23,933 nt of DNA, from positions 1-23,933 of the IMG/VR virus record IMGVR_UViG_3300037540_000264. The stretch is one strand, 5' to 3'. Under the pieces are notes generated by a model. The model searched no databases. It saw nothing but the letters and a program-made list of their open reading frames with translations, and had not been told where the DNA came from. The translations under genes were made by a program, and so were the position numbers. Source of the DNA: a virus. Numbering within the stretch: position 1 is the first letter of the stretch; every line of letters starts with the position of its first letter. Positions 338 through 17,468 of this stretch are shown piece by piece.

Positions 338-664
338 ATGGATTTAGTTGAAAAGTATCTTGGTGAAGCTACTAATATGCAGGTTGCTAATACCATCAAA
401 AAGCAATTAGGTCATAAAGCACTAGTTATGATGGGGGCAAAGAATCTTGTAGGGGGAGATGATTATTTTTCATTTAGAATTGGAAGAAATTCTAAAGGCA
501 TTAATTATATTAAAATTACTCTTACTTCAATGGATTTATATGATATTGAGTTTGGTTCTATAAGAGGAATGAACTATAAGGTTAAGTATGAAGCAAAGGG
601 CATCTATGCAGATATGATGCATAATGTGATTGAACAGAATACAGGAATGTATTTAAGCTTATAG
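338..664 (+). CDS. Candidate internal head protein with capsid-targeting-type N-terminus
   Basis: The 108-aa product begins MDLVEKYLGE followed by Ala. This 10-residue leader is shared with the genes at 1398, 2227 and 2592, and ends in L-x-E, the form of a T4 gp21 prohead-protease site. The remaining 98 residues look like a compact alpha/beta domain, with LGHKALVMMGAKNLV and later INYIKITLTSMDLYDIEFG. I recall domains of this look in uncharacterised proteins of many phages but cannot give a name or function. AGGAG (325-329) lies 8 nt before the ATG. The stop (662-664) is one base from the gp4-like gene. Inference: a protein packaged inside the head and trimmed to about 98 aa. What is seen is the shared leader; the processing is not shown. 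Confidence 0.85.
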   Translation: MDLVEKYLGEATNMQVANTIKKQLGHKALVMMGAKNLVGGDDYFSFRIGRNSKGINYIKITLTSMDLYDIEFGSIRGMNYKVKYEAKGIYADMMHNVIEQNTGMYLSL

Positions 665-665
665 G

Positions 666-1112
666 ATGAAAAAGTATAAGAGAAGTAAGAATGAAAGAGA
701 ATATGTTCCTTTTAATCCAGAAAAATATTGTGGAACTTATCCCATTATATGTAGGTCTTCTTGGGAATATAGGATGTGTGAATGGTTTGACTATAACAAA
801 GATGTTTTTGATTGGTCAAGTGAAGGGCATAGAATAAGATATTTTGATCCTACCAGTGGAAGAAACAGGATATATTATCCTGATTTTTATGTGAAGTTTA
901 GGAATAAGAGAAAAAAATTTATAGTTGAAGTCAAACCTGAAAAAGACATGAGAATGCCTAAAAGGGGTAAAAAGAGTCAAAAGACTATGATGATACGGGA
1001 ACATACCTTTATGGTAAATCAAGCTAAATTTAAGGCAGCAGAACAATATTGTAAGAAACTTGGATTTGAGTTTGTTATTTTGACAGAAAAAGATTTATTC
1101 AGGAGAAAGTAA
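666..1112 (+). CDS. Head completion protein, T4 gp4-like (PD-(D/E)xK nuclease fold)
   Basis: The 148-aa product matches the T4 gp4 (gp50) head-completion family in length and layout. A C-x-YPIICRSSWEYR segment (residues about 22-36) is followed by DWSSEGHRIRY. A nuclease core follows, with Asp73 in YYPDFYV and Glu88-Val-Lys90 in FIVEVK, the D...ExK signature of the TnsA-like PD-(D/E)xK fold, probably with Glu34 as a further ligand. In T4 this protein acts late in head maturation, before tails join. It is the one gene in this cluster that lacks the shared leader peptide (it starts MKKYKRSKNERE), so it serves as an internal contrast. The start lies one base after the previous stop, suggesting translational coupling, with only a weak ribosome binding site. 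The stop overlaps the next ATG (TAATG). Confidence 0.9.
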   Translation: MKKYKRSKNEREYVPFNPEKYCGTYPIICRSSWEYRMCEWFDYNKDVFDWSSEGHRIRYFDPTSGRNRIYYPDFYVKFRNKRKKFIVEVKPEKDMRMPKRGKKSQKTMMIREHTFMVNQAKFKAAEQYCKKLGFEFVILTEKDLFRRK

Positions 1113-1387
1113 TGGATTTAGGTAAGTTTGATAAATTTATATTGAAAGAAGACTTTATTGATCTATCTCAAGCTAAAGCAAATGTGGATAGTGTTGTTAG
1201 AAATATATCAACTATGGAAGATTGGCTTAATATGGCTAGGTCTCTTGTAGTGAGTGGAAAAAGAGATGATGCAATGAAAGTTTCTGTAGCTATAAATAAG
1301 AAGTCTATTATACTTGCTAAAGAAATTAAAAAAATTCCATCAAGAAGGGTAACGAATATAAGAAATAGAAGAACTAAGATGGTGTAA
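1112..1387 (+). CDS. Small basic helical protein with [L]xE leader, candidate internal head protein
   Basis: The 91-aa product begins MDLGKFDKFILKE followed by Asp. It opens like the shared MDL...KYLGE leader and ends in L-K-E, a form the gp21-type prohead protease could cut. The rest is predicted to be mostly helical and ends in a basic tail (IPSRRVTNIRNRRTKMV), as expected of a protein stored with DNA in the head. AGGAG (1101-1105) precedes the ATG, which overlaps the gp4-like stop. No family is recognised. It has one more internal L/I-x-E-like spot but no enzyme motif. Calling it a head protein rests only on the leader, the charge and the neighbours. Confidence 0.8.
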   Translation: MDLGKFDKFILKEDFIDLSQAKANVDSVVRNISTMEDWLNMARSLVVSGKRDDAMKVSVAINKKSIILAKEIKKIPSRRVTNIRNRRTKMV

Positions 1388-1397
1388 GGAGATTTAA

Positions 1398-1634
1398 ATG
1401 GATGATTTAATAGATAAATATTTAGGTGAAGGTAAGCTTTCTTGGAAAGACGTAAACACTGTATCTAAAAGAGTTGGTGGAAACTTAAGTCCTAGTAATG
1501 AAAGAGGAAAAATGTGGACTGTTTGGACGTTTAAGAATATTGAAAGTTACAGAGAGTTTGCAGATGAGATGCAAAGTAAACATATGACAATAAAAGGAGA
1601 CCCAAAGAAACTTGAGATGAAAGTTTGGTTCTAA
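1398..1634 (+). CDS. Small protein with KYLGE leader, candidate internal head protein
   Basis: The 78-aa product begins MDDLIDKYLGE followed by Gly, one of the four clearest copies of the leader. If it were cut after the Glu, a 67-residue domain would remain, with a beta-alpha-beta look (MWTVWTFKNIESYREFADEM, then KLEMKVWF at the C-terminus). That ferredoxin-like pattern is an inference from strand and helix spacing. An AAGGAG (1386-1391) overlaps the previous stop and is well placed for the ATG. No family is recognised. The mature part shares no visible similarity with its tagged neighbours, which suggests that the leader is a transferable signal rather than the trace of recent gene duplication. 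Confidence 0.82.
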   Translation: MDDLIDKYLGEGKLSWKDVNTVSKRVGGNLSPSNERGKMWTVWTFKNIESYREFADEMQSKHMTIKGDPKKLEMKVWF

Positions 1635-1660
1635 TAGATAAAAAAGGGGAGATTATATAA

Positions 1661-1960
1661 ATGGAACTTTTAAAAAAGATAGAAATGTTTGTTGATGAGT
1701 CAAGTGTTTATTCAACGGGACACCCAAATTTTCCGAAAGAGCAATATGAGGGTGTAAGACCCATTCAATTCATGAATTGGTGGGGAGACTTCAGACCTGG
1801 GGACAGAGTAGATGTAATGTTTGGAGAAGATTATATCAGTTTAGCAGGTACTAATGCAGAAGGTCATTTTGCAGGAATAAAGAAGGAAACTGAACTTGAT
1901 AATCCTGATGAAATTATGCAATTTAAAAATGCTGAAGGAAGAATTTGGAATTTTGTATAA
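1661..1960 (+). CDS. Small acidic protein with VDE leader, candidate internal head protein
   Basis: The 99-aa product begins MELLKKIEMFVDE followed by Ser, a looser version of the neighbouring leaders (hydrophobic/Lys helix ending in x-D-E, with Val in place of Leu or Ile). The rest contains a Trp pair (NWWGDFRPGDRVDVMFG) and a beta-rich look, and it ends in GRIWNFV. No family is recognised. The ribosome binding site AAGGGGAG (1644-1651) lies 9 nt upstream. A 26-nt gap from the previous gene is one of the larger ones in this cluster and holds only that site. Assignment to the tagged set is weaker here than for the KYLGE proteins. Confidence 0.8.
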   Translation: MELLKKIEMFVDESSVYSTGHPNFPKEQYEGVRPIQFMNWWGDFRPGDRVDVMFGEDYISLAGTNAEGHFAGIKKETELDNPDEIMQFKNAEGRIWNFV

Positions 1961-1971
1961 AGGGGGGAGTT

Positions 1972-2214
1972 ATGAGTGTATTAGATAAAATTGAATCAGC
2001 TTTAGATGAAGCTGATTTTGCTAAAGGTAAAAGTGCTATGTACCTAGCAGGTTACTTAGATCAAATGATGGTAAATTGGCAGGGAAATCTTAGGGTTGCA
2101 AAAGCAACAGGAGATTATGGTACAGCAGTTAATTCTATAGTTTCAAGTGCTCTGAATGATTTAGCCAAAATGAAAAAACAATTAGATAAAATGGCTAAGA
2201 CAGGAAAAGTATAG
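1972..2214 (+). CDS. Small helical protein with LDE leader, candidate internal head protein
   Basis: The 80-aa product begins MSVLDKIESALDE followed by Ala, an amphipathic leader ending in L-D-E before a small residue, fitting the pattern of the T4-type protease site. The rest appears all-helical and is rich in Ala, Met and Lys, ending in a basic stretch (KMKKQLDKMAKTGKV). I chose the ATG at 1972 over an upstream in-frame ATG at 1945 because a strong G-rich ribosome binding site (1961-1969) sits just before it, and the earlier start would lie inside the previous gene. No family is recognised. Confidence 0.8.
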   Translation: MSVLDKIESALDEADFAKGKSAMYLAGYLDQMMVNWQGNLRVAKATGDYGTAVNSIVSSALNDLAKMKKQLDKMAKTGKV

Positions 2215-2226
2215 GGAAAATATAAC

Positions 2227-2574
2227 ATGGATTTAATAGATAAATATTTAGGAGAAGGAAGATATCCGGTTGGAAATTCACCATCATTGGATTCACTAAA
2301 ATATGATCCATCTAAATATGCTAAAAATACACCACTAGGACTTGCAGCAACTTTAAGTAAGAAAGCTAAAGAAAGACATGATTCAGGAAGTAAAGATAGG
2401 ATAGGTTCATTTTTAATACAGGATATAGAATCAAGTTTTGGAATACATATCAAAAAGAAAGATAAAGCTATGACGAAAAAGTTAATAGATAAACTTGGAA
2501 AGGATAAAATTGCTAAAAAGATACATGGTGGAATGGATACCATGAATACTATAACTGATTGGATTGAATCTTAA
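2227..2574 (+). CDS. Small protein with KYLGE leader, candidate internal head protein
   Basis: The 115-aa product begins MDLIDKYLGE followed by Gly. Its 30-nt leader differs from that of the gene at 2592 by three bases: two synonymous and one Ile/Val, so the peptide rather than the DNA appears to be kept. The mature part is rich in Lys, Asp and Ser (basic overall), with a probable two-helix region (IQDIESSFGIHIKKKDKAM, then LIDKLGKDKIAKKIH). No family is recognised. A modest AGGGA ribosome binding site (2213-2217) overlaps the previous stop. Internalisation in the head is inferred from the leader. Confidence 0.82.
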   Translation: MDLIDKYLGEGRYPVGNSPSLDSLKYDPSKYAKNTPLGLAATLSKKAKERHDSGSKDRIGSFLIQDIESSFGIHIKKKDKAMTKKLIDKLGKDKIAKKIHGGMDTMNTITDWIES

Positions 2575-2591
2575 GTATAAAAGGGGGGTTC

Positions 2592-3053
2592 ATGGATTTA
2601 GTAGATAAGTATTTGGGAGAAATGATGGATAGTAGAGGTAAGGTGAAAGTTGGTTCAGTAACTTTGAATGCTAATATTGATTTTCAAAGAATGATTTTGA
2701 ATCAACATGAACCAAATATTTCATCCACAGACCCCAAAACAGGAGTAACATATTATGGTGGAAGTGGTATGAAAAATCCATTGACTGTAAAAGAGATTGA
2801 AAAAATATATAAAGAATCAAAAGAATTTTGGAAAAAAGGTGGGAAGTACACTAATGTAGGATCAAAAAAAGTTTTTATATCTATGAATATTATAATACAT
2901 GATCCAAGAGAATCAAAACCTTATTATGGTTCATGGAATTATGATGGATATGTTGGGTCTTCAAAAGGAACGAAAACTCCTAAAGAAGCATTTAAAGAAG
3001 CAGTTGAATCATTATGGTGGAGTATTAAAAAGCATAACTTAGAAGTGAATTAA
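2592..3053 (+). CDS. KYLGE-leader protein, candidate internal head protein
   Basis: The 153-aa product begins MDLVDKYLGE followed by Met, and is the largest of the tagged set. After the leader comes a mixed alpha/beta domain with no recognised motif. It includes a Tyr/Gly-rich stretch (GVTYYGGSGMKNPLTVKEIE), a strand pair (KVFISMNIIIHD) and a C-terminal helix with paired Trp (AVESLWWSIKKH). An AAGGGGGG run (2581-2588) sits only 3 nt before the ATG, an unusually short spacing. If it is processed like T4 internal proteins, the mature form would be about 143 aa. It could be an effector delivered to the host, such as an anti-defence protein, as T4 IPI* is, but nothing in the sequence points to a specific target. 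Confidence 0.82.
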   Translation: MDLVDKYLGEMMDSRGKVKVGSVTLNANIDFQRMILNQHEPNISSTDPKTGVTYYGGSGMKNPLTVKEIEKIYKESKEFWKKGGKYTNVGSKKVFISMNIIIHDPRESKPYYGSWNYDGYVGSSKGTKTPKEAFKEAVESLWWSIKKHNLEVN

Positions 3054-3061: not shown

Positions 3062-3571
3062 ATGCCATTAAGACGTGTTTATAAAAAAAGATTTAAAGGT
3101 GTGACTTTAACTACAGGGCATTTTTATACTTTTAAATATCAGGCATGGGAACATGATCCTAAACCTACTATCATTTTTATGTATAGTATTGAGGGTCTTC
3201 ATCCAAATACCGGACACCAATGGAGAATAATACAAGCTATAAACTTTACTTATATTCCAAGGGCAGTAAGAAAAAGATTCTTAAAGCAATGGATGAAGGA
3301 ATTACAAAAACCTGGGGATGTAAAGTTCACATGGCAAAAAGTTCAAGCTAGGTGGCCTTATCTGGAAAGGGCAGTAAGAAGATATTTTTTTAAACCAAGT
3401 TATTATATGAAAAATTTAAAAGAAATTCCATTTGATCAAATTGAAAAGGTAGTCATTTCAACGTGGTCAAAGGATTTCAGCAAGAAGATAACTATTGCTT
3501 TAATAGGTAAATTCAAAAAAGCTATGAAATTCAGATTAGGTAGGAAGAAGAAAAAGAAAAAGAGGAAATAA
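3062..3571 (+). CDS. Basic phage protein of unknown function, probably virion-associated
   Basis: The 169-aa product lacks the leader seen in the preceding genes. It has a conserved-looking core, FYTFKYQAWEHDPKPTIIF, then INFTYIPRAVRKRFLKQW and a WPYLERAVRRYFFKPSYY segment, and ends in a Lys/Arg tail of about 14 residues. The arrangement (short beta opening, 'INxTYIPR', then 'RRYFFKP') reminds me of uncharacterised proteins found near structural genes in T4-like marine phages, but I cannot name the family. The basic tail suggests contact with DNA or with an acidic surface. The stop and the next start overlap as TAATG (3569-3573), which ties it to the Ig-like gene. The ribosome binding site is weak (AAGGTG, 3052-3057). 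Confidence 0.8.
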   Translation: MPLRRVYKKRFKGVTLTTGHFYTFKYQAWEHDPKPTIIFMYSIEGLHPNTGHQWRIIQAINFTYIPRAVRKRFLKQWMKELQKPGDVKFTWQKVQARWPYLERAVRRYFFKPSYYMKNLKEIPFDQIEKVVISTWSKDFSKKITIALIGKFKKAMKFRLGRKKKKKKRK

Positions 3572-3876
3572 TGAGTGAAAAAACCTATATTGAGTTATGT
3601 AAAAATGACATACCTACAGTCCAAATAAATGTTTGGAGAGATAATGGTGAACCTCTTTCTCCTTCAGGAGCATATTATGCAATAAAAGGTTCTAAAAAGG
3701 ATAATATTATCATTCCACGTTCTGAAGCTCAAATAGATGGTAATAAAGTATATACTCAAGTTGGTCTAACTGTTACGGCAAGTGCTGCTGAGTATGATCT
3801 TTATTGGGAATTACAAAAGGATGGTGGAGATGTAGCTAATCATTGCACAAAGGTATTAGTAATAGATACGTGTTGA
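3571..3876 (+). CDS. Small Ig-like beta-sandwich protein, BppU-N-like, probable tail or fibre accessory
   Basis: The 101-aa product is built of beta strands. DIPTVQINVWRDNGEPLSPSG opens it, followed by a 'YYAIKGSK...' strand, 'AEYDLYWELQKDG' and a closing 'CTKVLVIDTC'. This pattern is typical of the small Ig-fold domain found at the N-terminus of BppU-type baseplate proteins and in stand-alone phage proteins placed just upstream of fibres. It has three Cys (residues about 10, 93 and 101), the last at the very C-terminus. It precedes the 2219-aa fibre-like protein with a one-base gap, so a role as adaptor or anchor is a reasonable inference, not a demonstrated one. Confidence 0.75.
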   Translation: MSEKTYIELCKNDIPTVQINVWRDNGEPLSPSGAYYAIKGSKKDNIIIPRSEAQIDGNKVYTQVGLTVTASAAEYDLYWELQKDGGDVANHCTKVLVIDTC

Positions 3877-3877: not shown

Positions 3878-6800
3878 ATGATAATTAAAGATGGTGATAC
3901 AGAGAAATTATATTTTAGTGTTGAAGTTCAAAGCAATAATATTTTCTATTCTGAAGAAGATAAATTATATTTTACAGTTGAAGTTAAAAATACTAATTTT
4001 TATTCTGATAGAGAAGGGTTATATTTTGATGTTCAAATCAGGTCAAGTTCGTCTAGTTCATCCTCACAATCAGGTTCAAGTTCAAGTTTAAGTTCCTCAA
4101 GTTTTAGTTTGAGTTCTGTTTCAAGTAGTTCTGTCAGTTCTTCAAGTTCAAGTATAAGCTCAAGTAGTTCAAGTTCAAGCTCTAGCTCATCTTCATCTTC
4201 ATCTTCAAGCTCTGTCAGTTCGTCTTCATCTTCCAGTTCAAGTTCTGAAAGTTCATCCAGTTCATCAAGCTCTGTTAGCTCATCAAGCAGTTCAAGTTCA
4301 ACTTCATGCTATGTGTCTGTAAGTGATGATTTTGCAGGAATAGAGTTAAATGTTCATAGATGGGAAGTTGGAACGAATGATATTGGTGTATTTTTCTATG
4401 TCAATAACCATCTTGATTTTGATGCACATGCTTCAGATCAACAAAATTATTTTGCTTGGATTGATTCAAGATATTCTATAATAGGTGATTTTGATGTTGA
4501 TACTGAATATGGACTTCAAACGAATTGTAATCCTACTCCAAGTGTAGATGAGACAAAAATTCTTCTGATTCAGGTTTTCAGAAGAAGTGATAATGCTAAT
4601 CTTGGATATATTGAAAGGGCTAGAAATAGTTTAGGTGAAAATAGATTTAGTGCTAATGGAGTAGATATAGGTTATACTTCTTATTTGGAGACCAATGAGG
4701 AAGAAGATCGTCCTTCAAGTCATGGGACTGAAGCAGGAACTAATTTTAGAATATCAAGAGAATCAGGTGTAATAAAAGTTTATGTTTATAATAATAATCT
4801 GTCAAGATGGGAGTGGAATGGTGATATTAATGGTCTAACTATTGTTAATAGTGAGACAAATGATGTTTATTTTAGAATTGCATTTGAACAGGAGTTAAAT
4901 AGTACTTTACATTCTCATGTAAATTATTTTAATGTTACTTATGATGATGTTGATTGTGCTGATAGTTCAAGCTCAAGCTCAAGTAGCTTCAGTAGCTCAA
5001 GCGAAAGCTCAAGCTCAAGTAGCTCAAGTGTATCTTCAAGTTCAAGCTCAAGTTCAGAATCAAGCTCAAGTTCAAGTTTGAGCAGTTCAAGCTCAAGCAG
5101 TTCGGTTAGCTCAAGCTCAAGTAGCTCATCAAGTTCCGAAAGCTCAAGCTCAAGTAGTTCAAGTTTGAGCAGTTCAAGCAGTTCCAGTTCCGAAAGCTCA
5201 AGCTCAAGCTCAAGTTCCGTAAGCTCAAGCTCATCCAGCAGTTCCAGTTCCGAAAGCTCAAGCTCAAGTTCGTCAAGCGAATCCTCAAGCTCAAGCTCAA
5301 GTTCAAGTTCCGAAAGCTCAAGCTCATCCAGTTCAAGTGAGAGCAGTTCAAGCAGTTCCAGTTCTGAAAGCTCAAGCTCAAGTTCAAGTTCTGAATCAAG
5401 CTCAAGCAGTTCCAGTTCCGAAAGCTCAAGCTCAAGTAGCTCAAGCGAATCTTCAAGCTCAAGCTCAAGTAGCTCAAGTTTGAGTAGTTCAAGCAGTTCC
5501 AGTTCCGAAAGCTCAAGCTCAAGTAGTTATTCGGGAAGCTCAAGTAGTTATTCGGGAAGCTCAAGCTCAAGTTCAGAATCAAGCTCAAGTTCAAGTTTGA
5601 GCAGTTCAAGCAGTTCCAGTTCCGAAAGCTCAAGCTCAAGTAGCTCAAGCGAATCTTCAAGCTCAAGCTCATCCAGTTCAAGTGAGAGCAGTTCAAGCAG
5701 TTCCAGTTCTGAAAGTTCAAGCTCAAGTTCAAGTTCCGAAAGCTCAAGCTCATCCAGTTCAAGTGAGAGCAGTTCAAGCAGTTCCAGTTCTGAAAGTTCA
5801 AGCTCAAGTTCAAGTTCCGAAAGCTCAAGCTCATCCAGTTCAAGTGAGAGCAGTTCAAGCAGTTCCAGTTCTGAAAGCTCAAGTTCAAGTTCAAGTTCCG
5901 AAAGCTCAAGCTCATCCAGTTCAAGTGAGAGCAGTTCAAGCAGTTCCAGTTCCGAAAGCTCAAGCTCAAGCTCAAGCTCAAGTTCCGTAAGCTCAAGCTC
6001 AAGTAGCTCAAGCGAATCTTCAAGCTCAAGTAGCTCAAGCGAATCTTCAAGCTCAAGTAGCTCAAGCAATAGCTCAAGTAGCTCAAGTAGCTCTGAATCC
6101 TGTTTTGTGAATCCATATGCAGATGATTTTACAGGTTCCAATGGAGATTTGCCGAATGTCCATAATTGGTTATCTTTTGGTGATGTAGATATTTTCAACA
6201 ATAAACTTAGAACTATTACTGTTAATGATATATCATATCCAGAAATAGAAAGTAGGTTCGGTATAGATGCAGGTGATTTTGATACTCAAATTGATTGGGA
6301 ATTAGGTACTGTTAGTCCATCAGGTAATACAGAAATAATGCTTGAAGTTTTTATTGATGGTTTTAACGGCATGAGGATGATTTATGAACCTCAAGCAAAT
6401 GAATGGATATCAAGATCATGGGTAGGTGGTACTCCAACAGAAAGCACATTTTCAGAGTTAACAACGGCAGGAAAACTTAGAATTAGAAGAATTGATAATA
6501 ATTGGACAAGCTTTAGATGGACAAGTGGTGGTTCTTGGGAAGCTGTACAGACTGATTCTGTATGTGGTTCAGGTGCTATACCTGTAAATGGATTGGAAAT
6601 ACAATCCAATACTTATGTTCAATCTAATATAACAGTTTACTATGATAATTTTTCATTGACAGCAGAGGATGTTACTTGTGCTCAAAGCTCAAGTAGCTCA
6701 TCAAGTTCCTTGAGTTCAAGTTCTTTGAGTTCAAGCTCAAGTAGCTCAAGCGAATCTTCAAGCTCAAGTAGCTCAAGCGAAAGTAGTTCAAGCAGTTCCA

Positions 6801-9800
6801 GTTCTGAAAGCTCAAGTTCAAGTAGCTCAAGTTTGAGCAGTTCAAGCAGTTCCAGTTCCGAAAGCTCAAGCTCAAGCTCAAGTTCCGTTTCAAGCTCAAG
6901 CTCAAGCAGTTCTGAATCAAGTTCAAGCTCATCAAGCTCCGAAAGCTCAAGTAGCTCAAGCGAAAGCAGTTCAAGCAGTTCCAGTTCTGAATCAAGCTCA
7001 AGCTCAAGCAGTTCTGAATCAAGCTCAAGCTCATCAAGCTCCGAAAGCTCAAGTAGCTCAAGCGAAAGTAGTTCAAGCAGTTCCAGTTCTGAAAGCTCAA
7101 GTTCAAGCTCAAGTTCTTCAAGTACTTCATTTGCTTTTGTTGAAGACCCTGATACTGATGATTTTGATCCTAATTCGAAAAATTATAGAGTTATCATTCT
7201 TAATACAGAAATAACAAATGATGGTAGTCAACCATTTACAAGGGTTCTTTTTAGAGGGCATTCTGCTCAAGATACTATCATAACAGGAGCATCAATTCAA
7301 AAGAGAAAGAATGCAATAGAAGATTATTTAATTGATCCTATAAGACTTACATTTGATAATGGGAGTGATAGTACAATAATATCAGGTGGAGTTGATAAAT
7401 GGTCTGATTGGTCAACATTTAGTTTACAACCTTCAGCAGATCATTTGATTCATGTATTTCAGGAAGGAAGTCCACATTACTATAAATTTAAGACTAAGAG
7501 TTCATCCACATATATTTTACAAGCAGGTGTGGATAATACAATGACCACTTCAATTAGTGCAAGTGGGTATTCTCTTGATAATAAGCATTATCATGTTGTA
7601 GCTATTGATACCAGTTCAAGTAGCTCATCCAGTTCTGTTAGCTCAAGCTCCGAATCAAGCAGTTCTGAAAGCTCAAGCTCAAGTTCAAGTTCTGAAAGCT
7701 CAAGTTCGTCAAGTTCAAGTGAGAGCAGTTCAAGCTCATCCAGTTCTGAAAGCTCAAGTTCAAGTTCAAGTTCTGAAAGCTCAAGTTCGTCAAGTTCAAG
7801 TGAGAGCAGTTCAAGCTCATCCAGTTCTGAAAGCTCAAGCTCAAGCTCAAGCTCCGAAAGCTCAAGTTCGTCAAGTAGTTCTGAAAGTTCATCTTCAAGC
7901 TCAAGTTCTGAATCTTCAAGCTCTGTGAGTTCAAGTTCATCAAGTTCTTCAGAATCAGAAGGTGGGATTGTTACAACTTGGTTTGGTGTTTCGGGAGCAT
8001 CAATTGATGAAGATAATGCCTTATCATTTGCAGGAAATTGGACTGTAAATAATCTTTCAATTTCAGGTTCAGGGCTTAATGAAGTTATACGGAATATATG
8101 TCCTATTTCAAGTGGATCAGCTATATCGGATGCATTCTTTACAGGAGAATTACATGCAGCAATCGGTACTAATAAATATTTGGGTTCATCTTGGCCTGTG
8201 GGTTTATTAGTGCAATATAAAACTGCAACTACTGAAAGTGGGGTAACTTCAGCGTCATTTGCTAATTATGATAAAAGAGGATTTATTAGTAATGGATGGG
8301 TACAGCTTAGAGTTGTGCTTTCAGGGACATATTCAAGCTCATCAAGTTCTGTTTCAAGTAGTTCTGAAAGTTCATCAAGTTCAAGTTCAAGTTCTTCAAG
8401 CTCTGAAAGTTCAAGCTCAAGTTCTAGTTCTGAAGCTTTTGGAACATGGTTTCAAGATAAAGATTTGGCAGCAGAACCTAATGATCAAAGAGCAGTATAT
8501 ACTGCTGCTTATGACTCAATTAATGGTAATTTAATTATAGGCACAAGAGGGGATGGTTCTACTACGGGTGCTCAAATATGGAAAAGTACAGATGGGTCTC
8601 TAACATGGACGAAGAAGAAAGAACTTTTCTTTGAATCACCATCACAAAATCAAATAGATACAATATGTTTTGCACCTTCTGGAAGTGGAATTTTGTTAGC
8701 AGGTAGTGCAGGTGATGCTCAAGTATGGAAAAGTTTGGATAGTGGGGAAACATGGGTTAAAAAGGCAGATTTTTCAGAAGAAATACCTATTGCTTCTACT
8801 CTATATCAAATTGTATATGATTCTTATAATAAACGATTTGTTGCAGGTACGGGGCATAATGATGGATTGATTTATACTAGTGATGATGGTGGTAATACAT
8901 GGACATTTAGATATAATTTTCCAGATGCTAGTATTAATAGAACTACAAAACTTCTATATATTCCTTCAGGAACAGGAATTCTATTGGCAGGAATCTCAGA
9001 TAATAATGTAAGTGAAATATATAAAAGCTTGGATGGTGGTGAATCATGGACTCAAAAGAAAGTTTTTGATTCTCCATCACAACAATTTATTTGGAGTTTT
9101 GAATATATTCCATCAGCATCATATCCATATCCTGCTTCAGGGGCAGGTGTGGCTCTAGCTGGTACTACTAGTGTAGGAGAAATTTGGAGAAGTGTGGATG
9201 GTGGTGAATCATGGACTAGAGTAAAACAATTGCTTTATGAAGCAACAGCAGAAACAACAGTTTATTCTATTGGTTATAGTCATAAACGTAATATGTGTTT
9301 TGTAGGAACGGCACAACATTCACAAGTATGGGTAAGTACTGATGGTGGCAAAACATGGACACTTGATCAAGAAATAGATGCTATTGCTACTTCTTCATGG
9401 GTAAAAGATTTAGTATATGATGTTGATCATAATAGGATGATTGCAGCTATTGGAGCAGGTGTAACTGATAGTGCTGAAATTTGGTCAAGAGGATTTTTAC
9501 CAAGTAGTAGTTCAAGCTCTCAATCATGGGAGGGGTGGAGATATGATGATACTGCTACTGATGAAGTAATGATTAATAATATTGTATATGACTCAATTAA
9601 CGGCTATTTAATTGCAGGTACATATCATAATGCAAAGATATATAGAAGTACAGATGGGTCTACAACGTGGGTAGATCAGGAAGTTGCAATTTCAGAAACT
9701 AGAATTGAGGGTCTAGGATTTTCTCCATCAGGAACGGGCTATTTAATTGCAGGTACACAAAATAATGCTCAAATATGGAGAAGTTTGAATGGTGGTGCAG

Positions 9801-10537
9801 ATTGGACAGAGATAGTAGATTTTTCAGATGCATCTCCTACTTCCCAATATGTATTTGATGTGGCATGGGATTCTTATAATAAGCGTTTTCTTGCATGTAC
9901 AGGGGAGACTGCTGGACTGATTTATAAGAGTGATAATGCAGGAGAAACATGGACTCTGCAAAAGAACTTTGCAAGTGAGACTCCATCACAAAATTCTATA
10001 TATGCACTTCAATTTTTTCCTTCAGGAAGTGGAATTTTATTTGCTGGAACAACAAATGGCACAAAAGCAGAAATATGGAGAAGTTATGATGGTGGAGATA
10101 ATTGGAATAGAATATATACATTTAGTTCTCAATCAAGAGTATTTAGTTTTGAGTATATTCCTTCAGCATCATACCCTGCTTCAGGTGCAGGGGCAATACT
10201 AGCAGGTACATATCCACAAGGTGAAATTTGGAGAAGTGTGGATGTTGGAAATACTTGGGTAAAAAAGAAACAATTATCACTAGAATCACCAGGACAAGAT
10301 AGAGTTTATAGGCTTGTTAATTCACCTATTTATGTTTATGCAACTACATTTTCTGATGGACAAGTATGGAAAAGTCCTGATGGTGGTAAAACGTGGTCAT
10401 TAGATAGGGATTTTACCTATAATAATGCTCATGGTTTAATATATGATAGAAAACATGAGAGAATAATAGTAGGTCTTGGTAAAATAGCTGCTGGTAATGC
10501 TGAAATTTGGTCAAAAAGTGGTGCTCCATCAAAATGA
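3878..10537 (+). CDS. Giant 2219-aa virion surface protein: poly-serine linkers, beta-sandwich domains, two Asp-box beta-propellers
   Basis: Probable receptor-binding or decoration fibre. Order by residue: 10-55, three short beta repeats built on LYF-x-V-[EQ]-[VI]; 56-143 Ser tract; 144-360, a LamG-like domain bounded by Cys144 and Cys360; 363-741, a 379-residue Ser tract; 742-934, a second such domain bounded by Cys742 and Cys934; 937-1084 Ser; 1085-1245, a beta domain; 1246-1361 Ser; 1362-1485, another beta domain; 1486-1519 Ser; 1520-1875, propeller 1; SSSSSSQ linker; 1883-2219, propeller 2. Each propeller carries six Asp boxes (S-x-D-G-G-x-[ST]-W type, e.g. KSLDGGESW) and a closing IWS strand, so seven blades are likely. 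No sialidase active-site pattern (FRIP, Arg triad) is seen, so binding is more likely than catalysis. The ATG has no clear ribosome binding site, so coupling to the Ig-like gene is likely. The stop overlaps the next start (ATGA). Confidence 0.93.
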   Translation: MIIKDGDTEKLYFSVEVQSNNIFYSEEDKLYFTVEVKNTNFYSDREGLYFDVQIRSSSSSSSSQSGSSSSLSSSSFSLSSVSSSSVSSSSSSISSSSSSSSSSSSSSSSSSSVSSSSSSSSSSESSSSSSSSVSSSSSSSSTSCYVSVSDDFAGIELNVHRWEVGTNDIGVFFYVNNHLDFDAHASDQQNYFAWIDSRYSIIGDFDVDTEYGLQTNCNPTPSVDETKILLIQVFRRSDNANLGYIERARNSLGENRFSANGVDIGYTSYLETNEEEDRPSSHGTEAGTNFRISRESGVIKVYVYNNNLSRWEWNGDINGLTIVNSETNDVYFRIAFEQELNSTLHSHVNYFNVTYDDVDCADSSSSSSSSFSSSSESSSSSSSSVSSSSSSSSESSSSSSLSSSSSSSSVSSSSSSSSSSESSSSSSSSLSSSSSSSSESSSSSSSSVSSSSSSSSSSESSSSSSSSESSSSSSSSSSESSSSSSSSESSSSSSSSESSSSSSSSESSSSSSSSESSSSSSSSESSSSSSSSSSLSSSSSSSSESSSSSSYSGSSSSYSGSSSSSSESSSSSSLSSSSSSSSESSSSSSSSESSSSSSSSSSESSSSSSSSESSSSSSSSESSSSSSSSESSSSSSSSESSSSSSSSESSSSSSSSESSSSSSSSESSSSSSSSESSSSSSSSESSSSSSSSESSSSSSSSSSVSSSSSSSSESSSSSSSSESSSSSSSSNSSSSSSSSESCFVNPYADDFTGSNGDLPNVHNWLSFGDVDIFNNKLRTITVNDISYPEIESRFGIDAGDFDTQIDWELGTVSPSGNTEIMLEVFIDGFNGMRMIYEPQANEWISRSWVGGTPTESTFSELTTAGKLRIRRIDNNWTSFRWTSGGSWEAVQTDSVCGSGAIPVNGLEIQSNTYVQSNITVYYDNFSLTAEDVTCAQSSSSSSSSLSSSSLSSSSSSSSESSSSSSSSESSSSSSSSESSSSSSSSLSSSSSSSSESSSSSSSSVSSSSSSSSESSSSSSSSESSSSSSESSSSSSSSESSSSSSSSESSSSSSSSESSSSSSESSSSSSSSESSSSSSSSSSTSFAFVEDPDTDDFDPNSKNYRVIILNTEITNDGSQPFTRVLFRGHSAQDTIITGASIQKRKNAIEDYLIDPIRLTFDNGSDSTIISGGVDKWSDWSTFSLQPSADHLIHVFQEGSPHYYKFKTKSSSTYILQAGVDNTMTTSISASGYSLDNKHYHVVAIDTSSSSSSSSVSSSSESSSSESSSSSSSSESSSSSSSSESSSSSSSSESSSSSSSSESSSSSSSSESSSSSSSSESSSSSSSSESSSSSSSSESSSSSSSSESSSSVSSSSSSSSESEGGIVTTWFGVSGASIDEDNALSFAGNWTVNNLSISGSGLNEVIRNICPISSGSAISDAFFTGELHAAIGTNKYLGSSWPVGLLVQYKTATTESGVTSASFANYDKRGFISNGWVQLRVVLSGTYSSSSSSVSSSSESSSSSSSSSSSSESSSSSSSSEAFGTWFQDKDLAAEPNDQRAVYTAAYDSINGNLIIGTRGDGSTTGAQIWKSTDGSLTWTKKKELFFESPSQNQIDTICFAPSGSGILLAGSAGDAQVWKSLDSGETWVKKADFSEEIPIASTLYQIVYDSYNKRFVAGTGHNDGLIYTSDDGGNTWTFRYNFPDASINRTTKLLYIPSGTGILLAGISDNNVSEIYKSLDGGESWTQKKVFDSPSQQFIWSFEYIPSASYPYPASGAGVALAGTTSVGEIWRSVDGGESWTRVKQLLYEATAETTVYSIGYSHKRNMCFVGTAQHSQVWVSTDGGKTWTLDQEIDAIATSSWVKDLVYDVDHNRMIAAIGAGVTDSAEIWSRGFLPSSSSSSQSWEGWRYDDTATDEVMINNIVYDSINGYLIAGTYHNAKIYRSTDGSTTWVDQEVAISETRIEGLGFSPSGTGYLIAGTQNNAQIWRSLNGGADWTEIVDFSDASPTSQYVFDVAWDSYNKRFLACTGETAGLIYKSDNAGETWTLQKNFASETPSQNSIYALQFFPSGSGILFAGTTNGTKAEIWRSYDGGDNWNRIYTFSSQSRVFSFEYIPSASYPASGAGAILAGTYPQGEIWRSVDVGNTWVKKKQLSLESPGQDRVYRLVNSPIYVYATTFSDGQVWKSPDGGKTWSLDRDFTYNNAHGLIYDRKHERIIVGLGKIAAGNAEIWSKSGAPSK
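4043..4300 (+). repeat. Poly-serine tract 1 of the giant protein
   Basis: This stretch encodes residues 56-141, mostly Ser, broken by Gln, Gly, Leu, Phe, Val, Ile and Glu. The interruptions are more varied here than in the later tracts, and one Ser run reaches 19. It links the N-terminal LYF repeats to the first Cys-bounded domain. Confidence 0.9.
4964..6100 (+). repeat. Poly-serine tract 2 (379 residues) of the giant protein
   Basis: Low-complexity DNA built from AGC/AGT and TCA codons. Single Glu, Val, Leu, Phe, Tyr/Gly or Asn residues interrupt serine runs that are almost always 6, 8 or 10 long, giving a dominant 9-residue (27-bp) period. Several codons for Ser are mixed (AGC, AGT, TCA, TCC, TCG, TCT), so it is not a pure microsatellite. 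It is probably a stiff or extended, possibly glycosylated, spacer. Confidence 0.93.
5671..5994 (+). repeat. 81-bp tandem repeat, four copies, inside Ser tract 2
   Basis: The marker ATCCAGTTCAAGTGAGAGC recurs at 5671, 5752, 5833 and 5914, exactly 81 bp apart each time (27 residues, three 9-residue units). The first three copies are nearly identical and the fourth diverges at its end. This indicates recent tandem amplification in frame. Confidence 0.9.
6686..7129 (+). repeat. Poly-serine tract 3 of the giant protein
   Basis: This encodes about 148 residues of Ser runs interrupted by Glu, Leu, Val and a final Thr. A longer internal duplication is visible: the segment starting ATCAAGCTCCGAAAGCTC occurs at 6931 and again at 7033, 102 bp (34 codons) apart. 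Confidence 0.9.
7613..7960 (+). repeat. Poly-serine tract 4 of the giant protein
   Basis: This encodes about 116 residues of Ser runs broken mainly by Glu and Val. A marker TCGTCAAGTTCAAGTGAGAG occurs at 7706 and 7787, again 81 bp apart, so the same unit length as in tract 2 is used in a separate tract. Confidence 0.9.
8333..8434 (+). repeat. Poly-serine tract 5 of the giant protein, before propeller 1
   Basis: A short tract of 34 residues (Ser runs with Val and Glu) joins the last beta domain to the first Asp-box propeller. A further six-Ser linker (codons about 9503-9520) separates the two propellers. Confidence 0.88.
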
Positions 10538-10851
10538 AGAAAATAAAAATAACTATACCTGAAGGTTATGATAAAAGAGTACTAAGGGTTTTTTCAGCAA
10601 GTAGTATGATTGCTGAAAAGCAACCTGAAGCAAATTGGTTTGTTCTTAAAAAGGGATGTGTTAGATGTGGCAAATGTTGTATGGATTTTCCAATAGTTTT
10701 TGGTCATGATGAGAATGGGCATTGTCCATATTTAGAGATTGCTAATGAAATATCATGTACTTTACAGTCTTATAGACCTTTCGGATGCTGTTGTGATAAT
10801 CCTAGAGGAATACCTGAATATTGCTCTATTGAATATGAGGAAGTGAGATGA
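10534..10851 (+). CDS. Cysteine-cluster protein, YkgJ-type (CxxCxxCC), putative metal or Fe-S binder
   Basis: The 105-aa product has ten Cys: C42, C45, C48, C49, C64, C75, C85, C86, C87 and C97. The core GCVRCGKCCMDFPIVFG, then HCPYLE, a CTLQSYRPFGC stretch and a late Cys match the layout of the YkgJ/UPF0153 'C-x2-C-x2-CC ... C ... C-x-(I/L)-Y-x-x-RP-x-x-C' family, thought to bind zinc or iron. The first 36 residues are an extra N-terminal piece. I chose the ATG at 10534 rather than 10507 because it forms an ATGA overlap with the stop of the giant gene. Its own TGA again overlaps the next ATG (10848). This tight coupling between two propeller proteins suggests joint production, perhaps as an assembly, modification or virion component. 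The function is unknown. Confidence 0.85.
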   Translation: MKKIKITIPEGYDKRVLRVFSASSMIAEKQPEANWFVLKKGCVRCGKCCMDFPIVFGHDENGHCPYLEIANEISCTLQSYRPFGCCCDNPRGIPEYCSIEYEEVR

Positions 10852-12923
10852 GAATAATATGTTGTAAGTGTAATAGAGAATATGATTTCAGACCTTTTGA
10901 AAGTAAAGAACATGATGCTGTTATAGCATGTCCTTATTGTGATGAAGTTCATTCGATTAAATTTGATACTATAACTCCTATTGATTTTAAAGTAGAAGAT
11001 CAAAAAGATTTAGAAACCATAAAATTAGTAACATATTACTATGATTCATATGTTACGGGAACAAGATTTGCTAATGCTACAGGGGGAAATGAATCAGCTT
11101 TCGATAATGCGACAACTCCTAATTGGCCTAGATATGATCAAATATGCATAGCTATTCATTTTTCATCATCTAAAGACCCTGTTCCTGCTTCATGGGAATT
11201 AGATTGGAATGATGATACAGATAATCCAACTCCCTCATGGACAGCAATAGGGTCAGCAACAGAGATTGCCTATGGGGTATCTTCTGGTATCATATCAGAT
11301 GATCAATCATGGTCAACTACTAATTTTATTTGTGATTCGACTTATACAGAAACTAATGGATATGCTAATGTAGGAGATAATACCCTTCCTGATGCTGGTA
11401 CACTTGATCCTATACCTGATGCTTCAAATTGGGATACTGAAATTTGGTTTGTTCTTGATACTTCAAGAGCAGATTGGGGGCATACTTATTCTTTTAGATT
11501 AAGAGATGAAAATAATACTAGGAGTGTTATTCTTGGTGGACACCTTAGTATTGAGAATTCAAGCTCTAGCTCATCAAGTAGTTCAAGCTCTAGCTCATCA
11601 AGCTCTTTAAGTTCAAGCTCTGAAAGTTCAAGCTCAAGCTCTAGTTCAAGTTCATCAAGTTTATCATGTGTTGATATAATTCTTTATGATATAGGATTAA
11701 AATCAAGTTCAAGTTCAAGTATAAGCTCAAGCAGTTCATCAAGCAGTTCATCAATTAGTTCATCAAGCAGTTCACAAGCTTTTGAAACATGGATATTGGA
11801 TGTAGCTAATGAAGATACAGCTTATAATTTAGCTATTTTTGGTACAATAGAGTATGATCCTACTAATGAAGTTATGCTTGCTGGTTGTCGGACTAGTCCG
11901 ACAGGTCATACATTCAGAAGTTATGATGCAGGGGATTGGGTTGATTTAGGTGTAATTGAAGACCCTAATGATAATGATGCATTTTCAATTGAAAAAATAA
12001 TATATATTCCAGGTATAGATAGGGGTGGGGTTTTACTAGCTGGAACATATTACGAAGCATCATTATTTAAAAGTGTTGATGAAGGAAGTACTTGGAATTG
12101 GATAGAAAATCTGATAAATGGATATGCTGAAAAGGGACTTTATGATCTTGCATATGATGGATATAGAGATAGAGTATATGCTTGTACAGGAGAGAATAGA
12201 GGTCATATATGGTATAGTGATGATGATGGTGATAATTGGACTGTTCAAGCTGGTGAAGGTGTTGGAGGGCTAAATGGTCAAGCAAATATTACAGCTTTGG
12301 AGTATATGCCTTCAGGTACAGGAATTGTAGTAGCTGGAACTAATCCACATGGAGATATATGGATATCAACAGATGGTGGTGTTAATTGGGATCAAAAGGC
12401 AGAATTAAATGATGAAACTCAACCACAATATACTATTCAAACTCTATGTTATGTTCCTTCTGCTGCACCTTCAGCAGCAGGGTACATAGGTGATCTTCTG
12501 TATCCATCAGGAGCAGGAGTATTACTAGCTGGTACTCTGCCAAATGCACAAATTTGGAGAAGTGTTAATGGTGGATATACTTGGACATTGGCAGTTTCTG
12601 CTATGGCTAGCGTTGCCCTTGGTGGAACTGTACATGATCTTTTTTATGATAAATATAGAGGTTGGGTATGGGCAGCAGTATTCGATTCACAAGGTGAAAG
12701 AGGGCCACAACCTTATATATTTTATAGTAAAGATGCAGGAAAAACATGGATTTTTGATTCGATGGTTGGTAGTCAAAGTTATAGTCAATATTATTTGACT
12801 GGATTGAGTCATAATCTTCTCCAAGATAGAATAAATGTTGGTCATGGGAAAGCAGCAGCAGCATATCATGGAGAAATTTGGTCAAGAGGATTTTCTCCAT
12901 CAGCTAGTGATTGGTGGATTTAA
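10848..12923 (+). CDS. 691-aa zinc-ribbon / poly-Ser / Asp-box propeller protein, paralogue of the giant
   Basis: Order by residue: 1-40, a zinc ribbon (Cys5-x2-Cys8 and Cys28-x2-Cys31); about 55-236, a beta domain without a recognised family; 238-273, Ser tract; 274-285, a short insert beginning CVDIILYDIGLK; 286-309, a second Ser tract; 311-680, a seven-bladed-type propeller with six Asp boxes (e.g. FKSVDEGSTW, ISTDGGVNW, RSVNGGYTW) closed by GEIWSRGFSPS, the same closing strand as propeller 1 of the giant protein (AEIWSRGFLPS). It is probably a second surface adhesin or fibre subunit. GAGG (10837-10840) precedes the ATG, which overlaps the stop of the Cys-cluster gene. An N-terminal zinc ribbon on a virion adhesin is odd. 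No terminator follows; the next promoter starts 9 nt after the stop. Confidence 0.9.
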   Translation: MRIICCKCNREYDFRPFESKEHDAVIACPYCDEVHSIKFDTITPIDFKVEDQKDLETIKLVTYYYDSYVTGTRFANATGGNESAFDNATTPNWPRYDQICIAIHFSSSKDPVPASWELDWNDDTDNPTPSWTAIGSATEIAYGVSSGIISDDQSWSTTNFICDSTYTETNGYANVGDNTLPDAGTLDPIPDASNWDTEIWFVLDTSRADWGHTYSFRLRDENNTRSVILGGHLSIENSSSSSSSSSSSSSSSSLSSSSESSSSSSSSSSSSLSCVDIILYDIGLKSSSSSSISSSSSSSSSSISSSSSSQAFETWILDVANEDTAYNLAIFGTIEYDPTNEVMLAGCRTSPTGHTFRSYDAGDWVDLGVIEDPNDNDAFSIEKIIYIPGIDRGGVLLAGTYYEASLFKSVDEGSTWNWIENLINGYAEKGLYDLAYDGYRDRVYACTGENRGHIWYSDDDGDNWTVQAGEGVGGLNGQANITALEYMPSGTGIVVAGTNPHGDIWISTDGGVNWDQKAELNDETQPQYTIQTLCYVPSAAPSAAGYIGDLLYPSGAGVLLAGTLPNAQIWRSVNGGYTWTLAVSAMASVALGGTVHDLFYDKYRGWVWAAVFDSQGERGPQPYIFYSKDAGKTWIFDSMVGSQSYSQYYLTGLSHNLLQDRINVGHGKAAAAYHGEIWSRGFSPSASDWWI
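11559..11774 (+). repeat. Two poly-serine tracts of the 691-aa protein
   Basis: Residues 238-273 (Ser runs of 16, 4 and 12 broken by Leu and Glu) and 286-309 flank a 12-residue insert. The same TCAAGC/AGTTCA codon texture as in the giant gene suggests shared origin or exchange between the two genes. Confidence 0.88.
11886..11903. other. Perfect 18-bp palindrome within the propeller gene
   Basis: TGTCGGACTAGTCCGACA equals its own reverse complement. It is codon-aligned, encoding Cys-Arg-Thr-Ser-Pro-Thr with CGG and CCG, codons uncommon in this AGA/CCA-rich sequence. It could be a protein-binding site or chance. Confidence 0.6.
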
Positions 12924-12968: not shown

Positions 12969-13622
12969 ATGATTAAAGTCTATATAAGTTGTTTAAATCC
13001 TGAAATTTTGGTGGTGACTCCCTTATTACCGAATCATAAGGTAAGCAAGATTACCAAGAAAACTTTGAATAGAAATAAAACTCCTATCTATTGGTTATCA
13101 AGTTCAGGGAATAATAATATTCCTACTAATGCTTTAGAGGGAATAAAGTGGTATAAGAATGAATTTGGTAAATTGCCACCATACTATATTATGATTGACA
13201 GGGATATAGAAATAGGCAGGGGAATGTTAGACCGTTTGTATGAAAAGTTAAGAAAAAATCCTGCTATTGGATATTGCTATGCAACTTTTCAATTCAAAGG
13301 TCATTTAAATGTGGATTTTCCTGCCATGCCATTTGATATAAATAGATTGGTTCAATGTAATTATATCAGTTCGAATTCATTGTTTAGATCAAATGTGATT
13401 GAGCAAGTGGGCCTTGTAACGGATAATAAATACAAAAGGCTGTTGGACTATGCATTTTTATTAAAATGCTTTAAAATGGGATATGTGGGCATTCCTGAAA
13501 ATAATGCATGGTTTATTGCACACTCTACTAAAGACGATATATCAGCAGGGTCTCAAGAAGATTACAGAGAAAAATACATGAGAGTATATGAAGATTTTAT
13601 TAGACCATTATATCAAGGATAA
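12969..13622 (+). CDS. Family-2 (GT-A type) glycosyltransferase-like protein
   Basis: The 217-aa product shows the GT2 pattern: SSSGNNNIPTNALEGIKW (residues 44-61), corresponding to the 'N-x-G-x-x-x-A-R-N' sugar-nucleotide region; PPYYIMIDRDIEIG with the metal-binding DxD at Asp77-Arg-Asp79; then MLDRLYEKLRKNPAIGYCYATF. A later acceptor-side segment includes NSLFRSNVIEQVGLV and LLDYAFLLKCFKMGYVGIP. It lacks the usual 'VSVIIPTYN' opening, replaced by VYISCLNPEILVV, and is short for GT2 enzymes. It has no membrane segment and should act in the cytoplasm. The promoter lies directly upstream and there is no ribosome binding site, so translation would be leaderless; a downstream in-frame start is the alternative. 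Its position just after two poly-Ser virion proteins makes them possible substrates, though cell-surface glycans or DNA are also possible. Confidence 0.8.
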   Translation: MIKVYISCLNPEILVVTPLLPNHKVSKITKKTLNRNKTPIYWLSSSGNNNIPTNALEGIKWYKNEFGKLPPYYIMIDRDIEIGRGMLDRLYEKLRKNPAIGYCYATFQFKGHLNVDFPAMPFDINRLVQCNYISSNSLFRSNVIEQVGLVTDNKYKRLLDYAFLLKCFKMGYVGIPENNAWFIAHSTKDDISAGSQEDYREKYMRVYEDFIRPLYQG

Positions 13623-14413: not shown

Positions 14414-14417
14414 TATG
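14401..14417 (+). promoter_or_regulatory. Stop/ribosome-binding-site module TTTAAGGAGATAATATG, copy 1
   Basis: These 17 bp encode the last residues (LRR), the stop and the AAGGAG of the next gene. They recur identically at 16111-16127. Both upstream proteins therefore end in L-R-R. Confidence 0.85.
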
Positions 14418-16123: not shown

Positions 16124-16127
16124 TATG
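16111..16127 (+). promoter_or_regulatory. Stop/ribosome-binding-site module TTTAAGGAGATAATATG, copy 2
   Basis: Identical to 14401-14417. It places AAGGAG across the end of the hub gene, giving the spike gene a strong ribosome binding site. Confidence 0.85.
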
Positions 16128-17468
16128 TTTAAGAGTCCACCAAAGGATTTAAGGATAGAAGTTGAAAGGATAACCGGATTCTATAGGGGTGTTGTGGAAG
16201 ATAATGTAGACCCTTTGAAAGCAGGAAGGGTTAGAGTGAGAATTCATGGTTTGCATACTCCAAATATAATTAAAAGTGAAACAGAAGGAATTCCTGTAGA
16301 TGAATTGCCGTGGGCTGAACCATGTTTGCTTATTCATGAAGGTTCTGTAAGTGGGTTTGGAGTATGGAATGTTCCACTTCAGGGTTCTCATGTGATGTTA
16401 TTTTTTGAAAATGGGAATGTATTGGAACCAAGATATTTTGCATCAATGCCGGGGATACCGGAAAGTAAAGAAGCATATTCCAATAGTAACAGAGTTACGA
16501 GTAAAAATGATGGATTTAAAGACCCTAAAGGAGAATATCCCACAAAATATAGGCTAGGTGAACCTGATGTACATAGATTGGCAAGAGGGAAATCTGAAGG
16601 CACGTTAGTTGAGACAAAGAATACTGAGAGAGATATAGGAGTCCCTACAGCTTTAGGTAATAGTTGGTCTGAACCTGAATCACCTTATGCAGCAAGATAT
16701 CCACACAATCATGTAATAGCTACTCATGGGGGAATTACAATTGAATTGGATTCTACTCCTGGGGCTACAAGACTAAATATTTATCATCCATCTAATAGCT
16801 TCATTGAAATTGATAATGAAGGGAATATGGTGATTAAGAATGGTGGACAGAAATATGAGATAGTAACACAGGGTAAAAATATTCATATAAAACAGGATAG
16901 GAATCTTACTATTGATGCAAATCATAAAAGAAAAGTAAATTTAGATGAGCAGATTGAAATAGGTGGGGATAAAGAAGAAGAAATTGATGGAGATATGTCT
17001 CAATCTATTCGTGGGAGTAAAACTGAAGATATAGATGTAGATAAAAATGAAGAAATAGGTGGGGATAAAAGTATTGATATTGTTGGAAATGAAACAAAAA
17101 ATATAGGTGGTAATAAGACAGATGATATTACTGGCAGTAAAACAAAAGATGTAGGTGGTAATGAAATAAATACGATTATTGGTAATAAAATAGAAAATAT
17201 AGGTGGAAATTTAGTGGTAACAGTAGTCGGAACGTCTACATTAACTGCTCCAACAATAAATTTAGTTGGGCCTGTTTATATATCAGGATTTCTATCAGTA
17301 GCAGGAGATGGTGGTGGTGAAGGTGGAGTAATTACAGGAACTATAAGATTAGAAAGTGGTGATATTATAGTTACAGGTGGTGATGTGATAGCTGATGGAA
17401 TCAGCTTGAAGACTCATATTCATGGTGGGGTTGATTCAGGTAGTAGTAATACAGACCCACCTAGTTAA
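16125..17468 (+). CDS. Baseplate central spike, gp5/gpV/VgrG-like, with HxH tip
   Basis: The 447-aa product has the spike layout. An N-terminal OB-fold domain (residues about 18-115) opens with 'GVVEDNVDPLKAGRVRVRIHG', has 'LPWAEPCLL' and ends in 'GSHVMLFFENGNVLEPRYFASMPG' (each a known OB-fold signature of gp5/gp138-type spikes). A linker region follows, then about 280-366 a run of short repeats (GGDK, IGGNKT, IVGNE) of the triple-stranded beta-helix type. The tip ends KTHIHGGVDSG, where His431-x-His433 matches the iron-binding HxH motif of P2 gpV and phi92 gp138 tips. No lysozyme domain is present, unlike T4 gp5, so cell-wall cutting must come from another protein. The self-contained tip suggests no separate PAAR protein is required. 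Confidence 0.88.
   Translation: MFKSPPKDLRIEVERITGFYRGVVEDNVDPLKAGRVRVRIHGLHTPNIIKSETEGIPVDELPWAEPCLLIHEGSVSGFGVWNVPLQGSHVMLFFENGNVLEPRYFASMPGIPESKEAYSNSNRVTSKNDGFKDPKGEYPTKYRLGEPDVHRLARGKSEGTLVETKNTERDIGVPTALGNSWSEPESPYAARYPHNHVIATHGGITIELDSTPGATRLNIYHPSNSFIEIDNEGNMVIKNGGQKYEIVTQGKNIHIKQDRNLTIDANHKRKVNLDEQIEIGGDKEEEIDGDMSQSIRGSKTEDIDVDKNEEIGGDKSIDIVGNETKNIGGNKTDDITGSKTKDVGGNEINTIIGNKIENIGGNLVVTVVGTSTLTAPTINLVGPVYISGFLSVAGDGGGEGGVITGTIRLESGDIIVTGGDVIADGISLKTHIHGGVDSGSSNTDPPS

Follow-up and report, generated by a model that had tools for sequence, protein, structure and literature searches.

The long tail fibers of phage T4 are built from several proteins that form rigid trimers rich in beta structure, whereas the serine-rich-repeat adhesins of Gram-positive bacteria carry SxSx-type repeats, are anchored to the cell wall and are secreted via an accessory Sec system. 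The poly-Ser linkers of polysaccharide-degrading bacteria are short, extending over tens of residues. In Saccharophagus degradans (PMC2386152) and Teredinibacter turnerae (PMC2699552), Ser runs are reported to link carbohydrate-binding and catalytic modules in surface or secreted proteins, and a survey of prokaryotes associated poly-Ser tracts with polysaccharide-binding proteins (PMC6821194). Poly-Ser linkers in bacterial polysaccharide-degrading proteins and concanavalin A (ConA)-like modules in phage tails are both already known. A 2019 analysis covering 102 phage proteomes found no low-complexity region longer than 115 residues (PMC6821194). Our literature search found no paper on poly-Ser phage fibers, which is weak evidence, subscription journals having been largely outside the search.

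The record analyzed here in full, a linear fragment of 23.9 kb (the window), contains a gene for a 2,219-aa protein of which about one third is poly-Ser. We consider it likely that this protein is a modular host-adhesion (receptor-binding) fiber of a T4-like contractile phage in which the binding domains are held on disordered poly-Ser tethers.

Genomic setting and relatives

PHROG profiles identified a gp4-type head closure protein (666-1112, E=1e-44), a gp2-type DNA end protector (3062-3571), a gp53 wedge protein (at 14415), a hub protein (at 14801), a gp5 spike (at 16125, E=4e-76), gp25 (at 19303, E=1e-34) and gp6 (at 19694, E=4e-36). The ordered gp6, gp25, gp53, hub and spike genes are those expected of a T4-like contractile phage, and tblastn with gp6 led to T4-like cyanophages. 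Judged by its gene content, the window is the region of a T4-like myovirus in which head-completion and baseplate genes cluster. To trace the host, a gp6 profile was run against 84,980 genomes; it gave only remote matches, in three unrelated MAGs.

Relatives were collected by gp6, which is 74-96% identical to that of the window, and by a glycosyltransferase-like (GT) gene. The order gp2, 101-aa gene, poly-Ser gene or genes, GT, gp53, hub, gp5, gp25, gp6 is kept in G005, G008 and G014, and the same gp2-to-gp6 order is found in G003 and G015 as far as their contigs reach, that of G003 covering only the GT side of the poly-Ser spot. Relatives have one to three poly-Ser genes between the gp2/101-aa genes and GT. 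A second poly-Ser set follows gp6, and its first gene is fused to a conserved tail protein of about 1,000 aa. There are eight poly-Ser ORFs in G005 (132 kb) and seven in G014 (107 kb). G001, with a gp6 96% identical to that of the window, encodes poly-Ser proteins of 1,355 and 1,647 aa, and the window probably continues past its end as G001 does. The string of domains joined by poly-Ser, which the preliminary description had implied to be singular, is by these comparisons a trait of a whole phage clade. Poly-Ser proteins also occur in a second, unrelated phage family (G022, G024, G025, G026), with 1,751 Ser in an open-ended ORF of 2,122 aa and the N-terminus MAEPNVKFEDTGAVTFEDTDAVEWW; G024 carries a tail sheath gene. 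Across IMG/VR, a pattern of ten alternating Ser codons was found in more than 119 stretches, with a poly-Ser ORF at 48 of the 80 loci read, so shorter poly-Ser forms are widespread. The exact S8E DNA pattern was absent from the bacterial genomes searched.

Other features of these fragments were recorded in passing. G005 and G014 carry 20 and 13 tRNA genes, and no tRNA-Ser was found in either fragment despite the demand for Ser; one tRNA of G014 has a CUA anticodon and is a possible amber suppressor. Small ORFs at 338-3053 of the window and near 17482 begin with MDLVDKYLGE, MDDLIDKYLGE or MQQYLTEA and contain an L-x-E motif. In these features they resemble the internal head proteins of T4, with their capsid-targeting sequence and prohead-protease site, and the ORFs may be a set of such proteins. 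Tandem 24/48-bp repeats at 17014-17210, in the gp5-type spike gene, are probably the beta-helix repeats of the spike.

Architecture of the 2,219-aa protein

The ORF is a single uninterrupted frame and encodes 829 Ser (37%) and 131 Glu. Its layout is tag, S94, ConA-like 1, S379, ConA-like 2, S148, segment 3, S115, segment 4, S37, propeller 1, propeller 2, as follows (basis of each assignment in parentheses):

3878..10537, + strand: 2,219-aa poly-Ser-linked multidomain protein, proposed receptor-binding fiber (open frame, composition)
3878..4042, + strand: N-terminal tag, three repeats of ~18 aa leading straight into Ser (motif count across Ser runs)
4043..4324, + strand: Ser tract 1, 94 aa, spacers mostly V/L (composition)
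4325..4963, + strand: ConA-like domain 1, aa 150-362 (same BLAST cluster as domain 2)
4964..6100, + strand: Ser tract 2, 379 aa, mainly (S8E)n (composition, codon analysis)
6101..6685, + strand: ConA-like domain 2, aa 742-936, Cys near both ends (model pLDDT 88.6, fold matches)
6686..7129, + strand: Ser tract 3, 148 aa (composition)
7130..7612, + strand: segment 3, 161 aa, unclassified (no relative found)
7613..7957, + strand: Ser tract 4, 115 aa (composition)
7958..8320, + strand: segment 4, 121 aa, unclassified (no relative found)
8321..8431, + strand: Ser tract 5, 37 aa (composition)
8432..9526, + strand: Asp-box beta-propeller 1, 29 modeled strands, consistent with seven blades (Pfam, profile, model)
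9539..10534, + strand: Asp-box beta-propeller 2, 46% identical to propeller 1 (Pfam, pairwise identity)

The five tracts (aa 56-149, 363-741, 937-1084, 1246-1360 and 1482-1518) sum to 773 residues, a figure that depends on the cut-off used and is close to the 765 of the preliminary description. The longest has exactly the 379 residues given there, and the order of four non-Ser segments followed by two propellers, read as beads on a string, was likewise borne out. This one tract exceeds the 115-residue maximum of the phage survey (PMC6821194). Glu is the commonest spacer within the tracts (55 single-residue spacers), with Val and Leu next.

The AlphaFold model of domain 2 (pLDDT 88.6, pTM 0.87) is a two-sheet beta-sandwich jelly roll, and Foldseek matched it to ConA-like structures in the PDB with E-values of 1e-6 to 1e-8, among them ConA-like lectins, carbohydrate-binding modules (CBMs), lyases, CBM66, GH43 accessory domains and the CBM of the Lactobacillus phage J-1 Dit (5ly8). 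Matches in BFVD were to tail spike, minor tail, BppU-type and tail-fiber proteins. Botulinum-toxin entries also appeared among the PDB matches, at 10-14% identity, and reflect the common jelly-roll fold of the toxins' binding domains, nothing more. We confidently predict a concanavalin A-like lectin/glucanase fold for domain 2; the ConA-like domains may bind carbohydrate. Clustering of the non-Ser segments gave a ConA-like family of 15 members in nine contigs, including the more remote G019 and G024, and placed Asp-box propellers at both poly-Ser loci of the clade.

The two propellers show SxDxGxTW boxes and a propeller fold of the Asp-box, GH74/YCF48/Vps10 type. They match Sortilin-Vps10 in Pfam (E=4e-28) and, by profile, GH74 xyloglucanases best in the PDB (E=6e-19); the model (pTM 0.85) has fold matches to YCF48, GH74 and sialidase proteins at 12-17% identity. 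The profile alignment to the GH74 structure 2cn2 covers the fold; a GH74 xyloglucanase would in addition carry a catalytic Asp pair in the cleft between its two propellers. A glycosylhydrolase model of NCBIfam was matched below its cut-off. The two propellers of the preliminary description are thereby upheld, while of its "at least four beta domains" structure prediction and comparison account for at least two, one a confidently predicted ConA-like fold; segments 3 and 4 had no relative or class in Pfam, PHROG or the segment clustering.

PHROG gave no match at a useful E-value for any segment of the protein, no known tail-fiber family in PHROG or Pfam was matched by the protein itself, and domains 1 and 2 and the propellers had no match in 50,697 sequenced phages, so no characterized protein anchors the role. 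The preliminary description had proposed a search of metagenomic phages for the same domain order; a pattern search of IMG/VR with domain 1 and the propellers found no relative having it. The poly-Ser proteins of the relatives contain Laminin_G_3, SPRY, F5/8C and RCC1 modules and match tail and tail-fiber families of PHROG. The predicted module set of the window and its relatives is that of adhesins, and sequence comparison indicates that modules have been shuffled between the two loci.

The tag at the N-terminus comprises three tandem repeats (KLYFSVEVQS, KLYFTVEVKN and GLYFDVQIRS). A corresponding motif, (L/A/I/W)x(F/Y)(Y/F/D)(V/I)x(I/V/F)R with Ser directly after it, is found at locus A, the gp2-side locus, in the window, G005, G008, G014 and G015, and precedes eight of 562 Ser runs, all at locus A. 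It is usually N-terminal, lying once near the C-terminus, in a 1,529-aa protein of G005. The tag may thus serve as an anchor or assembly tag. The G008 gene at locus A begins with LDPSPPLSGGEAFEIVQQIGSYKITLDQIKAFVL, which resembles known phage fiber N-termini; in the 2,219-aa protein, no trimerization motif or known fiber N-terminus was recognized.

Coding and maintenance of the Ser tracts

All six Ser codons are used in the tracts (TCA 223, AGT 181, AGC 163, TCT 51, TCC 49, TCG 9), and the 35 copies of the unit ESSSSSSSS are encoded by 22 different 27-mers. A Ser codon is followed by itself less often than expected (21/582, z -12.7), neighboring codons switch between the TCN and AGY families in 470/584 cases where 292 would be expected (z 14.7), and codon identity at lag 2 is enriched (z 7.5). 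Tandem arrays with periods of 27, 54, 81 and 204 bp are present, and no exact internal repeat is longer than 138 bp, a length reached at an offset of 81 bp (5659/5740). Ser runs are mostly of even length, with even:odd ratios of 92:1 in the window, 92:12 in G014, 98:26 in G005, 66:8 in G008 and 72:17 in G003, while odd lengths prevail in the unrelated G022-G026 family (35:224 in G022). Six-base slippage accounts for part of this parity but not for G005 genes without codon alternation; in G005_54839 even runs predominate (34:10) with alternation below chance, and hexanucleotide slippage was set aside as an insufficient cause.

A chance origin of the tracts is excluded. That they were inflated or invented by the assembler is hardly credible: the 138-bp repeat is close to short-read length, and broken frames in the G022-G026 family suggest assembly trouble in that family, but the frame stays open through 773 tract residues, the Ser codings are varied, and similar proteins come from several independent metagenomes. 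Given the length of the longest exact repeat, the one doubtful point is how many copies of the 81-bp unit tract 2 contains; that number could be slightly misassembled, the tracts as such hardly. Selfish expansion by slippage of hexanucleotide and 27-bp units, leaving tolerated filler without a role, is improbable too, if less so. It would fit the tandem arrays, the codon-family alternation and the enrichment at lag 2, but no single silent substitution converts TCN to AGY, and because the families are more than one silent step apart, copying of one unit alone cannot give the alternation. Expansion is also at odds with the varied coding of one nine-residue unit, with the even runs of the G005 genes that lack alternation, and with the fact that many different genes across the clade contain long Ser tracts, which mostly separate folded domains. 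The 22 codings of one unit and the avoidance of codon repeats argue for maintenance of poly-Ser by selection at the protein level, and against an artefact. Selection, proposed as strong in the preliminary description, is supported in this form, by codon scrambling, and not in its derivation from coding cost: the 28% share of coding capacity overstates the cost because the window is a fragment, and the gene would amount to about 5% of the 132-kb relative G005. The scrambled tracts provide a natural example of a very repetitive protein encoded by less repetitive DNA.

Neighboring genes and proposed function

Four genes adjoin the 2,219-aa gene or follow closely:

3571..3876, + strand: 101-aa protein directly upstream of the poly-Ser gene (conservation in relatives)
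10534..10851, + strand: 105-aa CxxCGxCC protein (ATGA overlap with the poly-Ser genes on both sides)
10848..12923, + strand: second poly-Ser protein, 691 aa, with an N-terminal region, Ser tracts and one Asp-box propeller (sequence comparison)
12969..13622, + strand: probable GT2-type glycosyltransferase (weak Pfam match, E=0.029)

In each of the four relatives covering the spot, the 101-aa protein is conserved ahead of the poly-Ser genes (48-59% identity); it had no match in Pfam, PHROG or NCBIfam. The propeller of the 691-aa protein shares 32-34% identity with the two propellers of the larger protein. The GT2-like gene has a DRD motif and scores 14.8 bits, below the Pfam cut-off of 23.3, with no match among PDB profiles or in cultured phages. 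Its family lies between the poly-Ser genes and gp53 in the clade and near recombination genes in the more remote phages G019-G021.

The proposed fiber would be anchored to the particle, most likely at the baseplate or tail, by its short, beta-strand-like N-terminal tag, synteny suggesting that the protein is located in the virion. Long, hydrophilic, disordered (S8E)n tethers would hold out two ConA-like sandwiches, two small domains and the propeller pair, and the C-terminal Asp-box propellers and lectin-type modules would bind surface glycans or other polymers. Reach and rotational freedom given by the tethers would allow weak binding modules to act together, and tether length may drift as repeat units are added or lost, with selection maintaining the Ser-rich character of the tracts. 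The fully extended contour of the tethers, by arithmetic about 280 nm at 0.36 nm per residue, is an upper bound only, and hence the "great length" of the fiber in the preliminary description stays a proposal; as a random coil the tethers would be much shorter, and a disordered Ser chain may be compact. The poly-Ser genes of the clade are probably an uncharacterized class of long, flexible host-binding fibers.

The tethers might instead be O-glycosylated by phage glycosyltransferases into stiff, mucin-like bottle-brush spacers, with the CxxCGxCC protein aiding modification or assembly. We regard this as unlikely, though it is the strongest competitor. The GT2-like gene directly follows the poly-Ser genes in the window, G003, G005, G008, G014 and G015, and in G024 the poly-Ser genes come after three glycosyltransferase-like and four methyltransferase genes; but the GT assignment is weak, and members of the family are also found with no poly-Ser gene next to them (G016-G018, G020, G021), for which reason a dedicated Ser-glycosylating role was downgraded. 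The CxxCGxCC gene is ATGA-coupled between the poly-Ser genes of the window, and in G023, G024 (39326-39685) and G026 (3441-3806) a homologue (29% identity, E=6e-9) lies 4-8 bp downstream of giant poly-Ser genes. This adjacency amounts to only two independent cases, since those three contigs are close kin, and in a wider search most copies in viral contigs had no poly-Ser neighbor, so the protein was dropped as a general poly-Ser partner. Less probable still is a non-virion protein made in infection and acting at the host surface as a secreted decoy, exclusion factor or polysaccharide enzyme. The GH74 and NCBIfam glycosylhydrolase matches of the propellers and the adjoining GT and CxxCGxCC genes would suit such a role, and the two propellers could have a catalytic rather than a binding role; however, the gene sits co-oriented among late structural genes, its N-terminus has no hydrophobic signal-like stretch, and at the second locus a protein built in this way forms part of a fusion with a tail protein. 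A receptor-binding fiber thus remains our preferred reading. A bolder extension of it, which we advance as speculation with a low chance of being right, is a distinct adhesion organelle of environmental T4-like phages, with up to eight poly-Ser-tethered lectin/propeller fibers per genome, tethers quantized in length by even Ser numbers, and modification or maturation by the linked glycosyltransferase and CxxCGxCC proteins. If the preferred reading is right, these phages would hold their hosts by long, floppy tethers rather than rigid fibers, altering the view of adsorption by multivalent weak binding.

Comparison with known systems

Like the serine-rich-repeat adhesins of Gram-positive bacteria, the 2,219-aa protein combines Ser-dominated spacers with predicted binding domains and has glycosyltransferase genes nearby; no SxSx-type repeat, cell-wall anchor, signal peptide or accessory Sec gene was found within the window. 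Compared with bacterial poly-Ser linkers, its tracts are of 379 and 148 residues, have a regular S8E rhythm and lie at a phage structural locus. The propellers share Asp-box repeats and fold with GH74 xyloglucanases, YCF48 and sortilin-type proteins, and a tandem pair with GH74, but differ in sequence (12-17% identity in the fold search) and in being parted by a short Ser linker. The ConA-like beta-sandwich is similar in fold (TMq 0.64) to the CBMs of phage tails and baseplates (such as J-1 Dit 5ly8, BppU, tail spikes). Sequence identity to them is only ~10%, and unlike those CBMs, which are packed on the baseplate, the domains of the window would be carried on disordered Ser tethers. The long tail fibers of T4 (gp34-gp37) are comparable in phage type, given the T4-like baseplate genes, and in proposed function; unlike them, the window protein would be a flexible string of domains.
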